From Alistipes sp. (GTDB lineage: Bacteria > Bacteroidota > Bacteroidia > Bacteroidales > Rikenellaceae), in contig JAFZFX010000040.1 of the NCBI GenBank assembly GCA_017555695.1, positions 1 through 41,227 of the forward strand: a DNA stretch of 41,227 nucleotides, given 5' to 3'. The notes below the pieces were generated by a model that was not told the DNA's origin, searched no databases, and saw only the letters and a program-made list of their open reading frames with translations. Positions 8,071-41,227 of the stretch are shown here, piece after piece (the stretch's first letter is position 1; each line of letters starts with the position of its first letter). The translations under genes and the position numbers were made by a program.

Positions 8071-8205
8071 TTTTTCTTTATCCTATTTGTCATTGCGAAT
8101 GAACGAAGTGAATGTGACATTTATGTTTATACAACAACTTTGATTAGCACTCTACGGCTGTGGGATGAGATTGATTAGCGAGATAAGGTTCTTCAATTAG
8201 TAAAT

Positions 8206-8411
8206 GGCATCTTTTTGATGCCTCCACCTTTTGGCCCACAAAAGGTGGCGCCAAAATGGGCGCGGTGACAAGTTTTCGGGGTCGGTGCTTGCCGTCGGTA
8301 AAACGGACGCCTACGCGCTTTTACTTCGTGAAAAGTTATCCGTTTCTTAACCCTCCGTCTTCGCACCGCCCTTCGTCCGAAAACTTGCCTGCCGCGGATG
8401 GGCTTCGCGAC
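8206..8411 (-). repeat. Structured ~200-bp dispersed repeat, copy 1
   Basis: One of four near-identical copies. Top-strand pairing: end hairpin GGCATC/GATGCC (8206-8222); stem CCACCTTTTG (8224-8233)/CAAAAGGTGG (8239-8248) whose loop GCCCA (8234-8238) is complementary to TGGGC (8257-8261), giving a pseudoknot; long-range CAAGTTTTCGG (8269-8279)/CCGAAAACTTG (8377-8387); CGGTGC (8283-8288)/GCACCG (8363-8368). G-U pairs in other copies indicate that the minus strand is the RNA. An arginine-rich open frame on that strand has only a TTG start and is probably not a gene. Confidence 0.85.
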
Positions 8412-8446
8412 AATGAAATTCAAAATGCAGAATTCAAAATTTGTTT

Positions 8447-8565
8447 GTCATTGCGAGAGCCTTTAGGCTCGTGGCAACACTGCGATTAAGCGAGGGCAGA
8501 ATCAAACTTGTTTGAATTATGCCGAGCAGTAGCAGGGAAAAGACACAAAGTGGATTAATCTCCTG
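8447..8565 (-). repeat. Dispersed repeat module D, copy 1
   Basis: About 115 bp, roughly 95% identical by eye to the inverse complement of 19188-19303. It includes a GAGCC..GGCTC hairpin at the CATTGCGAG end and an inner palindrome around CAAACTTGTTTG. Confidence 0.8.
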
Positions 8566-8578
8566 CATAACAGATACA

Positions 8579-18517: not shown

Positions 18518-18646
18518 TGTGTGTATGTCTAATGGTAACGAGGAGATTAATCCACAGTCGCTACACTCCTTCGCAATGACAAAAAAAATCTCTCACGGCG
18601 GTGGGATGAGATTGCGGAGCGAGATAAGGTTCTTCACTTAATAAAT

Positions 18647-18852
18647 GGCATCTTTTTGATGCCTCCACCTTTTGGCCCACAAAAGGTGGCGCCAAAATGG
18701 GCGCGGTGACAAGTTTTCGGGGTCGGCGCTTGCCGTCGGTAAAACGGACGCCTACGCGCTTTTACTTCGTGAAAAGTTATCCGTTTCTTAACCCTCCGTC
18801 TGCGCACCGCCCTTCGTCCGAAAACTTGCCTGCCGCGGTTGGGCTTCGCACC
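18647..18852 (-). repeat. Structured ~200-bp dispersed repeat, copy 2
   Basis: Differs from copy 1 at about five positions over 206 bp. It keeps the end hairpin (18647-18663), the stem 18665-18674/18680-18689 and the pseudoknot GCCCA (18675-18679) with TGGGC (18698-18702). The internal helix reads CGGCGC (18724-18729) against GCACCG (18804-18809): a C-A clash on the top strand but a U-G pair on the bottom strand. Confidence 0.85.
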
Positions 18853-19187
18853 AATGAAATTCAAAATTGGATTTGTCATTACGAGGAGGGCAAAGCCCGA
18901 CGCGGTAATCTCATTTGGGTAGGAAGGAAATTGCCACGAGCCTGACGGCTCTCGCAATGACAGATACAACAACAATTCTCCCTCTAAGCTAGAGGGAGTA
19001 CCCTTTAGGGGGAGGGAGTGTGTTAATTTTGGGAGTGTGTTCTTTGAATGATATATTCGACCAATTTACAGACTCCTCCGTCACTACCTCTGGTAGTGCC
19101 ACCTCCTCTAGCTTAGAGGAGGAATTTTTATTAAGTGAGGATGCTCCTCTTGCTAATTAATGGTGTCCCACAGCCGTAGGTAGGAGA

Positions 19188-19303
19188 TTAATCCACTTCG
19201 TGTCTTTTCCCTGCTCCTGCTCGGCATAATTCAAACAAGTTTGATTCTGCCCTCGCTTACTCGCAGTGTTGCCACGAGCCTAACGGCTCTCGCAATGACA
19301 AAA
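19188..19303 (+). repeat. Dispersed repeat module D, copy 2
   Basis: Inverse-complement counterpart of 8447-8565 with few differences (for example CTCCTGCTC versus CTACTGCTC). It ends in a GAGCCtaacGGCTC hairpin where copy 1 has GAGCCtttaGGCTC, so the apical loop varies while the stem is kept. Confidence 0.8.
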
Positions 19304-19435
19304 AACAATTTTGAAATCTTATTATCCCACCGCCGTAAAAAAATCTCATTTTTTCTTTCGCATCACACAATAAACCTCAAGACCGTTGCGTTATTGGAGT
19401 AACAAACAACAAAAAACAAACAAAACAAGGAGCCT

Positions 19436-19602: not shown

Positions 19603-19638
19603 TCCGACTATCGCCATCCGCGTGATAGTCGGATTTTT
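19603..19638 (+). terminator. Terminator of the 47-aa gene
   Basis: TCCGACTATC (19603-19612) pairs perfectly with GATAGTCGGA (19624-19633), followed by TTTTTATT. Confidence 0.9.
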
Positions 19639-19686
19639 ATTAAGTGAGGATCCTCTTCGCGCTAATGGAGAGTGTCCCACCAAAAC

Positions 19687-19806
19687 CAACATCCCCAACA
19701 CCAACATCCTCTAAATCAACACCCCCAAAACCGCACCCATCAAACACAACATCCCCAACACCAACACCTACCAAATCAACACCCAACCGCCACCCACCAA
19801 AAAAAA
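19687..19806 (+). repeat. Two 60-bp CA-rich tandem repeats
   Basis: Unit 1 (19687-19746) and unit 2 (19747-19806) have exactly 60-nt periodicity. Both begin CAACATCCCCAACACCAACA and share TAAATCAACACCC or CAAATCAACACCC further on. The top strand is almost free of G. In one frame it encodes a Pro/Thr/Ser-rich string, but without gene signals. Confidence 0.85.
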
Positions 19807-25861: not shown

Positions 25862-25982
25862 GGCTTGCTCCCAACTGAGGGGTGAGATTCCCACGCATTT
25901 TTTTTGCTTGTCATTACGAGGAGGGTCGAGCCCTACGCGGTAATCTCAAAAAAAAATGCTCGGAATGACATTCGTGCAAGCC
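25862..25982. repeat. Nested palindrome containing a hairpin module
   Basis: Three inverted-repeat layers share one centre: GGCTTGC (25862-25868)/GCAAGCC (25976-25982); an arm with ATTCCCACGCATTTTTTTT against AAAAAAAAATGCTCGGAAT; and the inner module GTCATTACGAGGAGGGTCGAGCCCTACGCGGTAATCTC (25910-25947), split here only for reading. Confidence 0.7.
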
Positions 25983-28430: not shown

Positions 28431-28570
28431 GGTGATATTCCTAAATTCAAGATTCGAGATTCAAAATTCAAAATTGACACACTCCCTCCCCCCTAAAGGG
28501 TACTCCCTCTAGCTTAGAGGGAGAATTTTTTATTAATTCTAAAATCCAATTTTGAATTTTGAATTTCTTT

Positions 28571-28771
28571 GGTGCGAAGCCCATCCGCGGCAGGCAAGTT
28601 TTCGGGCAAAGGGCGGTGCGCAGACGGAGGGTTAAGAAACGGATAACTTTTCACGCAGTAAAAGCGCGTAGGCGTCCGTTTTACCGACGGCAAGCGCCGA
28701 CCCCGAAAACTTGTCACCGCGCAGGTTTTGGCTACCTTTTGCCTGCCAAAAGGTAGGACATCTAAGGTGTC
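28571..28771 (+). repeat. Structured ~200-bp dispersed repeat, copy 3 (divergent head)
   Basis: The core matches the other copies on the opposite strand, but the pseudoknot end has diverged with pairing kept. The upstream strand is GCAGG (28721-28725), the stem is CTACCTTTTG (28732-28741)/CAAAAGGTAG (28747-28756) and the loop is CCTGC (28742-28746), complementary to GCAGG. The end hairpin GACATC-TAA-GGTGTC (28757-28771) contains a T-G pair and is followed by TTTTATAG. This orientation is the one in which all pairs are canonical or G-U. Confidence 0.88.
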
Positions 28772-28923
28772 TTTTATAGAGAGGAACCATATCTCGCTAA
28801 TCAAACCTATCCCACAGCCGTAAAGGATTAATAAAAATTCCTCCTCTAAGCTAGAGGAGGTGGCACGAACAAAGTGAGTGACGGAGGAGTCTGTAAAATC
28901 AATTTTGAATTTTGCATTAAACA

Positions 28924-32562: not shown

Positions 32563-33002
32563 CAATAAAGCCCGTGAAATTCAAAATTACCAATTCAAAA
32601 TTCAAGATTATTTAAGGTATAGACTGCCCTTTTTGGCCAGTTTGGACCAAAAAGTAATTCAAAATCAAGAATTAAAAATTCAAAATGGGATTAATCTCCT
32701 ACTTACGGCGGTGGGATGAGATTGATTAGCGAGATAAGTCACCTCACTATAAAAGACACCTTAGGTGTCCACCTTTTGGCCCACAAAAGGTGGCGCCAAA
32801 ATGGGCGCGGTGACAAGTTTTCGGGGTCGGTGCTTGCCGTCGGTAAAACGGACGCCTACGCGCTTTTACTGCGTGAAAAGTTATCCGTTTCTTAACCCTC
32901 CGTCTGCGCACCGCCCTCCGTCCGAAAACTTGCCTGCCGCGGTTGGGCTGCGCACCACTAAATTTGTCATTGCGAGAGCCTTCGTTCCACTCTTCGCAAT
33001 GA
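32563..33002. repeat. Repeat-mosaic spacer upstream of lysS
   Basis: No gene is supported. AATTCAAAATT linkers are at about 32577-32605 and 32650-32685. A CGGCGGTGGGATGAGATTGATTAGCGAG module is at 32704-32754, the structured repeat copy 4 at 32755-32956, and a GTCATTGCGA/TCGCAATGAC hairpin at 32965-33003. The plus-strand open frame 32765-33049 is a repeat translation. Confidence 0.8.
32755..32956 (-). repeat. Structured ~200-bp dispersed repeat, copy 4
   Basis: The end hairpin is GACACC-TTA-GGTGTC (32755-32769), not the GGCATC/GATGCC of copies 1 and 2: two base pairs changed in both arms. Stem 32769-32778/32784-32793 and pseudoknot GCCCA (32779-32783)/TGGGC (32802-32806) match copies 1 and 2. 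On the minus strand the end hairpin is followed by TTTTATAG. Confidence 0.85.
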
Positions 33003-40868: not shown

Positions 40869-41227
40869 AATTCAATTTGCGAAGTTGCCTAACAAGGCTC
40901 TTTTGTCGTTTCTCTCGCCCTCGAAATCCTCACATACGCTTAAGTATGCTGCGGTTTCTCGGGCTTCGAGAGCCTAAAAATAGCTCTTGTTATACAACTT
41001 CTAAAGAGATGAGGTTGTCCTTCGGCGGGACAATCTAATCTTGAATTTTGAATTCTGAATTTCATTGTCGCGTAGCTCCTTCGGAATGACATTTTTATTA
41101 GCTTTTTTCTCTACCTGTCATTGCGAGGAGGAGTTTACTCCGACGCGGCAATCTCCTACCTACGGCTGTGGGACACCATTAATTAGCAAGAGGAGCATCC
41201 TCACTTAATAAAAATTCCTCCTCTAAG
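40869..41227. repeat. Repeat-mosaic spacer at right end
   Basis: No gene. It contains the 119-bp palindrome (40882-41000), an AATTTTGAATTC linker (about 41039-41064), a CATTGCGAGGAGG hairpin module (41117-41153) and a CCCACAGCCGTA..TTAAGTGAGG-type module to the end. From about 41060 it is the inverse complement of about 60-225. Confidence 0.8.
40882..41000 (+). repeat. 119-bp palindromic element, copy 2
   Basis: Outer arms AAGTTGCCTAACAAGGCTC and AGCTCTTGTTATACAACTT are near inverse complements. The centre is CATAC..GTATG, flanked by GAAATCCTCA and CTGCGGTTTC as in copy 1. It follows the terminator of the DUF1080 gene. Confidence 0.8.

Follow-up and report, generated by a model that had tools for sequence, protein, structure and literature searches.

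A dispersed non-coding repeat of Alistipes with a covarying pseudoknot tail and a probable triple helix

What is the ∼200-nt sequence that recurs four times in a single contig of a gut Alistipes sp., and is it a structured RNA or a piece of mobile DNA? The contig (JAFZFX010000040.1 of assembly GCA_017555695.1) was analyzed over all of its 41,227 nt, which we call the window, and the element lies on both strands (Table 1). The original prediction, made from the window alone, described four nearly identical copies ending in an H-type pseudoknot, took six compensatory changes among them as evidence of selection for structure, and proposed either a structured RNA or a single-stranded DNA element recognized by a transposase acting in trans. 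All four copies are present where they had been placed, and copies 1, 2, and 4 are 92 to 93% identical to copy 3 over the aligned part. We give an even chance to the reading that the element is non-coding, non-autonomous, intergenic, and mobile, with a lifestyle like that of miniature inverted-repeat transposable elements (MITEs) or of doublets of repetitive extragenic palindromes (REPs; the doublets are called REPINs), and that its fold is read as a DNA end by an enzyme supplied in trans. A probable triple helix and an organization in inverted pairs are additions to what had been described before.

The tail of the element differs among the copies as claimed. The two strands of the pseudoknot stem, S1, read GCCCA/TGGGC in copies 1, 2, and 4 and GCAGG/CCTGC in copy 3 (three double changes); the S2 stem, which encloses the loop, reads CCACC/GGTGG or CTACC/GGTAG (one double change); and the end hairpin reads GGCATC/GATGCC in copies 1 and 2 and GACACC/GGTGTC in copy 4 (two double changes), copy 3 having GACATC/GGTGTC with a T.G wobble. 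The six compensatory changes are real, but they are not six independent events: in the alignment of copies from the host genome, changes in S1 and S2 are linked in two tail haplotypes, so they probably represent one or two events.

Wider sampling gives the tail the general form NNN-TTTTGG-n-ACCTTTTG-N'N'N'-CAAAAGGT, in which the bases 5' of the T-run are complementary to the loop of the hairpin that follows. The part of S1 retained across taxa is a core of ∼3 bp adjoining the T-run, and a complete 5-bp S1 stem without a connecting loop would be sterically strained. Two sets of tails were counted, both including chance pattern matches in coding DNA. In the first, at least 4 complementary S1 bases are found in 27 of 113 distinct cases (9.4 in shuffles). 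In the second, an S1 stem of at least 3 bp abuts the T-run in 25 of 95 distinct combinations; shuffling gave 4.3 on average and 12 at most, and none of 2,000 shuffles reached the observed number, either in the whole set or in the two groups given below. Eleven distinct 3-bp stems occur. The abutting stems number 14 of 43 in the Alistipes group (5.4 by shuffling), which includes a few loci from other genera of its family, with L156 to L186 assigned from sequence, and 11 of 52 in the others (1.3 by shuffling). Thus, the proposed H-type pseudoknot covaries far beyond the host genome. The 70 combinations that fail the strict test, among them chance matches in coding DNA, An66-like copies with part of S1, and offset variants, weigh against a universal requirement for S1. 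A Flavobacteriales locus (L087) and loci L157, L177, and L184 have the same TTTTGG-CTCC-ACCTTTTG hairpin without S1 complementarity. In L023, L070, L082, and L163, the loop resembles the reverse complement of the sequence that should pair with the upstream S1 strand, as though the S2 hairpin were inverted.

The T-run of the linker L1 and the A-run of the S2 stem vary together in length. Among 107 distinct tails, 73 have runs of at most 4 on both sides (13 of them not exactly equal), 25 have T-runs of at least 5 with A-runs of 5, 9 have T-runs of at most 4 with A-runs of 5, and none has a T-run of at least 5 with an A-run of at most 4; several of the off-diagonal rows look misread in direction, and the association (Fisher, 3e-17) is uncorrected for relatedness and for the 4-run search pattern. 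The two runs are exactly equal in 82 of the 107 tails, 60 being 4/4 and 22 being 5/5, in a collection that favors 4/4 tails because most loci were fetched by a 4-run pattern or by similarity. Both forms are present in Alistipes, in Chakrabartyella (Bacillota), and in one Parcubacteria bin. That the T-run tracks the A-run suggests a T(U)-A-T(U) triplex, probable on sequence grounds, with the L1 T-run against the S2 A-run. L1 would follow the major groove of S2 in an H-type arrangement, much like the third strand of SAM-V, an H-type pseudoknot with U.A-U triples in its major groove (PMC6061858). If the triplex is true, matched T- and A-runs beside a short S1 would provide a searchable signature for such elements and then for their enzyme.

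Covariation is not confined to the tail. A model drawn from 17 copies in six genomes consists of a rod (P1a, P1b, P2, a tandem G.A step, and P3), a P4/P5 fork, and then the tail. The structure alignment, A4, holds these 17 copies, 8 of them from the genome of the window, after 5'-truncated L012 was left out of 18. Using a structure taken from copy 4, which favors Watson-Crick cells, bases pair in 93.6% of the 948 cells, and a double change occurs in 18 of the 56 pairs. Double-change cells number 49, compared with a mean of 14.2 in shuffles that ignore relatedness (0 of 500 were as high), and fall to 2 to 10 when partners are slid; in the tail they are undercounted, as A4 columns are misaligned there for 5-run sequences. 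One of five measures, the number of further pair types, is not above the shuffles (29 versus 27.1; 135 of 500 as high). Distant copies, L023, L024, and L025 among them, have a rebuilt P2 (by eye), and the fold stability z score is −4.44 for the plus strand and −2.29 for the other. A further alignment, A5, was fitted to the model and could thereby favor paired cells. Wider sampling thus retains the fold, and the body covaries as well as the tail.

The copies behave like a dispersed, decaying repeat. The host genome gives 19 BLAST matches, read as 16 places, which with one remnant found via its tail make ∼17 copies or remnants: 8 are full length, 4 end at contig ends, and 5 are truncated or internally deleted. 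In L014, L015, L017, and L063, the middle is gone between short direct repeats (by eye), which is what slippage at a palindrome would do. Since several copies are decaying, a selfish repeat fits better than a gene family. No terminal inverted repeats were seen by eye around the host-genome copies. Between loci L081 and L164, the intergenic content has been replaced while the flanks are 94 to 96% identical, indicating in this one pair that copies turn over; L164 retains a tail-like hairpin.

The distribution is patchy. By DNA similarity, 16 of 101 genomes of the genus carry the element, and a covariance model (R1), a search that had been suggested at the outset, reaches beyond these copies to 38 of 161 genomes (18 of 65 good ones). 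Within the family, the tail pattern occurs in 13 of 150 genomes and 3 of 22 genera, with no matches to the reversed pattern. A wider scan yields at least 111 stretches, Alistipes accounting for 37 of the 80 titles listed, and the tail is seen in Bacteroidota, Bacillota, and one Parcubacteria bin; because the Parcubacteria and Clostridia sequences come from metagenome bins, contamination is possible there. Searched alone in 295 Bacteroidia genomes, the 5-run hairpin occurs at 10 places in 8 genomes, near background (4 matches for the reversed control), and in viral contigs the tail pattern occurs in two stretches, neither with a similar body (by eye).

Many tails lie in inverted pairs. Model searches, one of them over 100 of 212 loci with 106 matches, reveal pairs in Alistipes with tails outward and ∼30 to 140 nt between the matches. 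A general tail finder places neighboring tails within 800 nt head-to-head in 14 of 25 cases, head-to-tail in 7, and tail-to-tail in 4, a count that merges identical contexts and in which several pairs belong to the same family and so are not independent. Head-to-head pairs also occur in Chakrabartyella, Lewinella (Bacteroidota), and one Clostridia bin, and one Parcubacteria contig joins a 4/4 tail and a 5/5 tail head-to-head. The complete 3.4-Mb genome of Chakrabartyella piscis (CP092441; G548) has 101 full or partial matches, and there the pair sits in a ∼700-bp unit with constant outer ends. Among the 25 of 30 loci checked, the left end motif is present at 11, the right at 12, and both at 4 (units of 575 to 758 bp); the left and right ends are an inverted match at 19 of 24 bases (hand count). 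As a separate observation, one chromosome half, with negative GC skew, has 22 of the 28 units that were placed (from 101 matches).

These findings can be joined into one proposed mechanism. When single-stranded, the plus strand would form an extended rod whose tip is forked (P1-P2-P3, P4/P5), followed by the tail, where an S1 of 3 to 5 bp would form with the loop of a 9- to 10-bp S2 hairpin and the L1 T-run would lie in the S2 groove against the A-run. A trans-acting recombinase or transposase, for now a candidate only, would read this fold as an end, and two inverted halves with tails outward would form the opposite ends of a single moving unit. Element families in unrelated bacteria share this recipe for the tail, and this points to a mode of recognizing mobile DNA that has not been described. 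We offer as a doubtful extension that these families form a class of mobile DNA with pseudoknot-plus-triplex ends, often a 4-base run at one end and a 5-base run at the other, served by a type of enzyme not yet linked to such ends and present in isolates of two phyla and a bin of a third. A hairpin-repeat, MITE/REPIN-like lifestyle is already known. No description of the tail or of its spread was found in the portions of the open-license literature that were searched.

The most serious alternative, with odds clearly below even, is a structured RNA: a ∼200-nt transcript with a triplex-stabilized 3' end, closed in some lineages by a terminator, whose gene would have spread as a selfish or regulatory RNA gene. 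Covariation alone is no proof of RNA, and the share of wobble pairs, set against an RNA of the same genus, is a further test. In transfer-messenger RNA (tmRNA; 30 loci of 34 above the cut-off), G.U accounts for 21% of the paired cells and for 28% of the departures, or 35% of departures with a reference filter, with G.U to A.C at 10 to 1. In the element, where identical rows were merged (94 distinct of 106), G.U is found in ∼2% of cells and in 5 to 7% of departures in the covariance-model-aligned set, or 16 to 17% in the small, less diverged MAFFT set. Because the copy 4-derived structure favors Watson-Crick cells, the test was redone with a reference filter and RNAalifold structures. A tRNA control of 9 genes only has 8.3% G.U and 0.9% A.C in 108 cells. 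The scarcity of wobble relative to tmRNA makes us lean to folded DNA, although the same scarcity could arise if copies decay neutrally or if RNA helices have to be very stable. In favor of RNA, the plus strand folds better and holds more wobble, and RNA is known to form H-type pseudoknots with U.A-U triples in the major groove, as in SAM-V (PMC6061858). Against it, several copies are broken, and there is no match to a known family: at the Rfam gathering score, the window has none and 18 related loci have only two tRNAs, and the ten weak matches at E up to 10 are all far below that score and do not include HEARO. This agrees with the original remark that the motif was not recognized as a known RNA class. 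Of the original twin proposal, the mobile half is well supported by multiple copies, patchiness, decay, shared-end units in another phylum, and turnover between close species; between RNA and DNA, the wobble share is a lean toward DNA and not a decision.

It is improbable, in our estimate, that the palindromes are kept by mutation, with hairpin-templated repair or strand switching copying one arm onto the other and making double changes in one step. Such upkeep would suit departures that are mostly Watson-Crick, inverted-looking loops such as those of L023 and L070, and own-genome changes that come as haplotypes, but it does not easily explain S1, whose strands are not opposed in a simple hairpin, nor the matching of T- and A-runs and a design shared across phyla. 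Less probable still is a REP/REPIN moved by a Y1 transposase of the REP-associated tyrosine transposase (RAYT) type that resides outside these genomes, was lost, was missed by PF01797, or lies in assembly gaps. In favor of this reading, the element is intergenic, hairpin ended, non-autonomous, and arranged in inverted pairs, and a Y1 gene is present in the carrier G076. A survey of HuH enzymes (PMC6006769) describes REPs in inverted doublets and a subclass in Bacteroidetes whose structures are atypical, and PMC3733652 reports CGTC-tagged repeats from Bacteroidetes. Conversely, the halves of the element, of ∼170 to 200 nt, compare with REPs of 21 to 65 nt in PMC6006769. PF01797 was matched in 1 of 40 genomes searched, in none of 20 chosen carriers, and in 1 of 25 (G076) once five further R1-model carriers were added, against 5 of 14 controls; the 3.4 kb around the G076 gene contain neither a match to the model (E up to 1) nor a tail-like hairpin. 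This rarity speaks against the best-known enzyme of the kind, although several genomes are 71 to 90% complete, and the trans-acting transposase first proposed is not, in its obvious IS200/RAYT-type form, borne out.

We still prefer a mobile element whose folded DNA is read as an end, and several results besides the rarity of Y1 count against it. None of the window copies has a visible inverted partner, so that each would be a solitary half. Four Chakrabartyella units with both ends lack a target-site duplication, and no clean empty site was found, turnover being seen instead. A hand count reveals no replication-strand bias: G548 has 11 plus and 11 minus copies on one chromosome half and 2 plus and 4 minus on the second half (using 28 of the 101 places), and G182 has 3 leading and 5 lagging. 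The G.U-to-A.C ratio of the element, 2.0 to 6.3 to 1 depending on the structure used, is an excess that RNA would also show. Of 52 downstream stretches (left after merging or dropping from 60 hand-picked among 106 matches), 17 contain a terminator-like hairpin, compared with 10.7% of random 60-mers and 5.0% of shuffled stretches, which suits RNA, although copies from the genome of the window itself make up 7 of the 13 terminator-like matches listed (17 were found).

No recurrent neighbor protein appears among the 14 largest clusters listed (open reading frames of at least 90 amino acids, 50 loci); the two largest overlap the element itself, and the rest are small groups of syntenic-looking loci. 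Four matches lie inside a reading frame of at least 150 amino acids by simple calling. A cis-regulatory leader was rejected because the 44 gene contexts vary: 16 are convergent and 9 divergent, and the codirectional ones have the element on the same strand in 13 cases and on the opposite strand in 6. Four candidates were rejected as the general source: RAYT/IS200 Y1, on the counts above; TnpB, with its zinc-ribbon domain above the cut-off in 1 of 20 carriers; IS110, with Transposase_20 in 4 of 21 element-bearing genomes; and reverse transcriptase, with a patchy PF00078 (19 of 40 genomes positive overall; not found in G000, which is 88% complete, or in another 10 of the 20 chosen carriers). IS91-type Y2 was matched in 0 of 20 carriers, an uninformative result since the control genomes also lack any match.

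The window holds other repeats, and its intergenic regions look like mosaics of several of them. A second dispersed repeat (TTATTAAGTGAG...CCCACAGCCGTA) is at 77 to 124, 19124 to 19171, and 19633 to 19680, with copies adjoining the element at, e.g., 8152 to 8204 and 18593 to 18645; it lies after the end hairpin of the element and, elsewhere, after other terminator-like hairpins with T-runs. A third (ending AAAAGACACGAAGTGGATTAAT) is at 8441 to 8569 and 19177 to 19305; its end also follows the element tail in G055, and a relative lies inside the tails of L024 and L043. A common repeat, TTGTCATTACGAGGAGGGC...GACGCGGTAATCTC, is at 137 to 176, 18873 to 18913, and 25908 to 25948, and an imperfect 15-bp tandem repeat (CCAACACCAACATCC-like) is at 19676 to 19784. 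Positions 66 to 152 and 41140 to 41226 are the same repeat, inverted, at both contig ends, which is probably why the assembly breaks there.

Table 1. Element copies in the window and the parts of copy 3 (window positions)
Feature	Position	Strand	Remarks
Copy 1	8206..8411	-	GCCCA/TGGGC tail; end hairpin GGCATC/GATGCC
Copy 2	18647..18852	-	GCCCA/TGGGC tail; end hairpin GGCATC/GATGCC
Copy 3	28571..28771	+	Plus-strand orientation, tail at 3' end; GCAGG/CCTGC
Copy 4	32755..32956	-	GCCCA/TGGGC tail; end hairpin GACACC/GGTGTC
5' block TGGTGCGAAGCCCA	28570..28583	+	Other species have a related block 5' of P1 (by eye)
P1a, 5' strand CGCGG	28586..28590	+	Partner 28717-28721
P1b, 5' strand CAAGTTTTCGG	28595..28605	+	Partner 28703-28713
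P2, 5' strand GGCGGTGC	28612..28619	+	Partner 28694-28702, one bulged A
GGGTTAAG adjoining tandem G.A step	28629..28636	+	GTTAA here common among Alistipes copies (by eye)
P3	28637..28681	+	28637-28643 with 28675-28681; closes fork of hairpins P4 (28647-28664) and P5 (28665-28674)
3' strands of P1b (28703-28713) and P1a (28717-28721)	28703..28721	+	
S1a GCAGG	28721..28725	+	Partner is loop 28742-28746; first G also closes P1a
L1 TTTTGG	28726..28731	+	Predicted third strand along A-run of S2
S2 hairpin CTACCTTTTG-CCTGC-CAAAAGGTAG	28732..28756	+	Loop is S1b
End hairpin GACATC/GGTGTC and T-run, terminator-like	28757..28776	+	Contains T.G wobble

Several known systems share parts of this design. 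Triplex pseudoknots also occur in SAM-II and preQ1-II, which like SAM-V are riboswitches, and in telomerase RNA; unlike in these, the motif here ends a dispersed repeat. TnpB and IscB guide RNAs, HEARO, and the IS110 bridge RNA are structured non-coding parts of mobile elements, from which the present element differs in the low counts of the TnpB domain and Transposase_20 among its carriers and in the lack of a HEARO match. Integron attC sites are bulged rods with a core pair, GTTRRRY/RYYYAAC, read by structure as a folded single strand. In little sequence conservation and recognition by structure, our element would resemble attC (PMC2727003). It differs from attC in showing inverted pairs, with no cassette arrays noticed and GTTAA frequent by eye only. 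Like MITEs, e.g., those of Porphyromonas gingivalis (PMC4596501), it is non-autonomous and dispersed, and Chakrabartyella units have inverted ends, none being seen by eye around the host-genome copies; unlike MITEs, it has structured halves inside these ends, without target-site duplications seen in the four units above. REPs and REPINs with RAYT (TnpA-REP) are likewise intergenic, non-coding, and hairpin based, form inverted doublets, and are presumed to be mobilized in trans (PMC6006769 and PMC8266576); a REP has a tag, GTAG or CGTC, at one end, according to PMC3733652. REP-type hairpin repeats are usually ascribed to Y1 transposases, whereas the halves of this element are much longer and end in a complex, covarying tail of the pseudoknot/triplex type, and Y1 is found in a single one of 25 Alistipes-group carriers.
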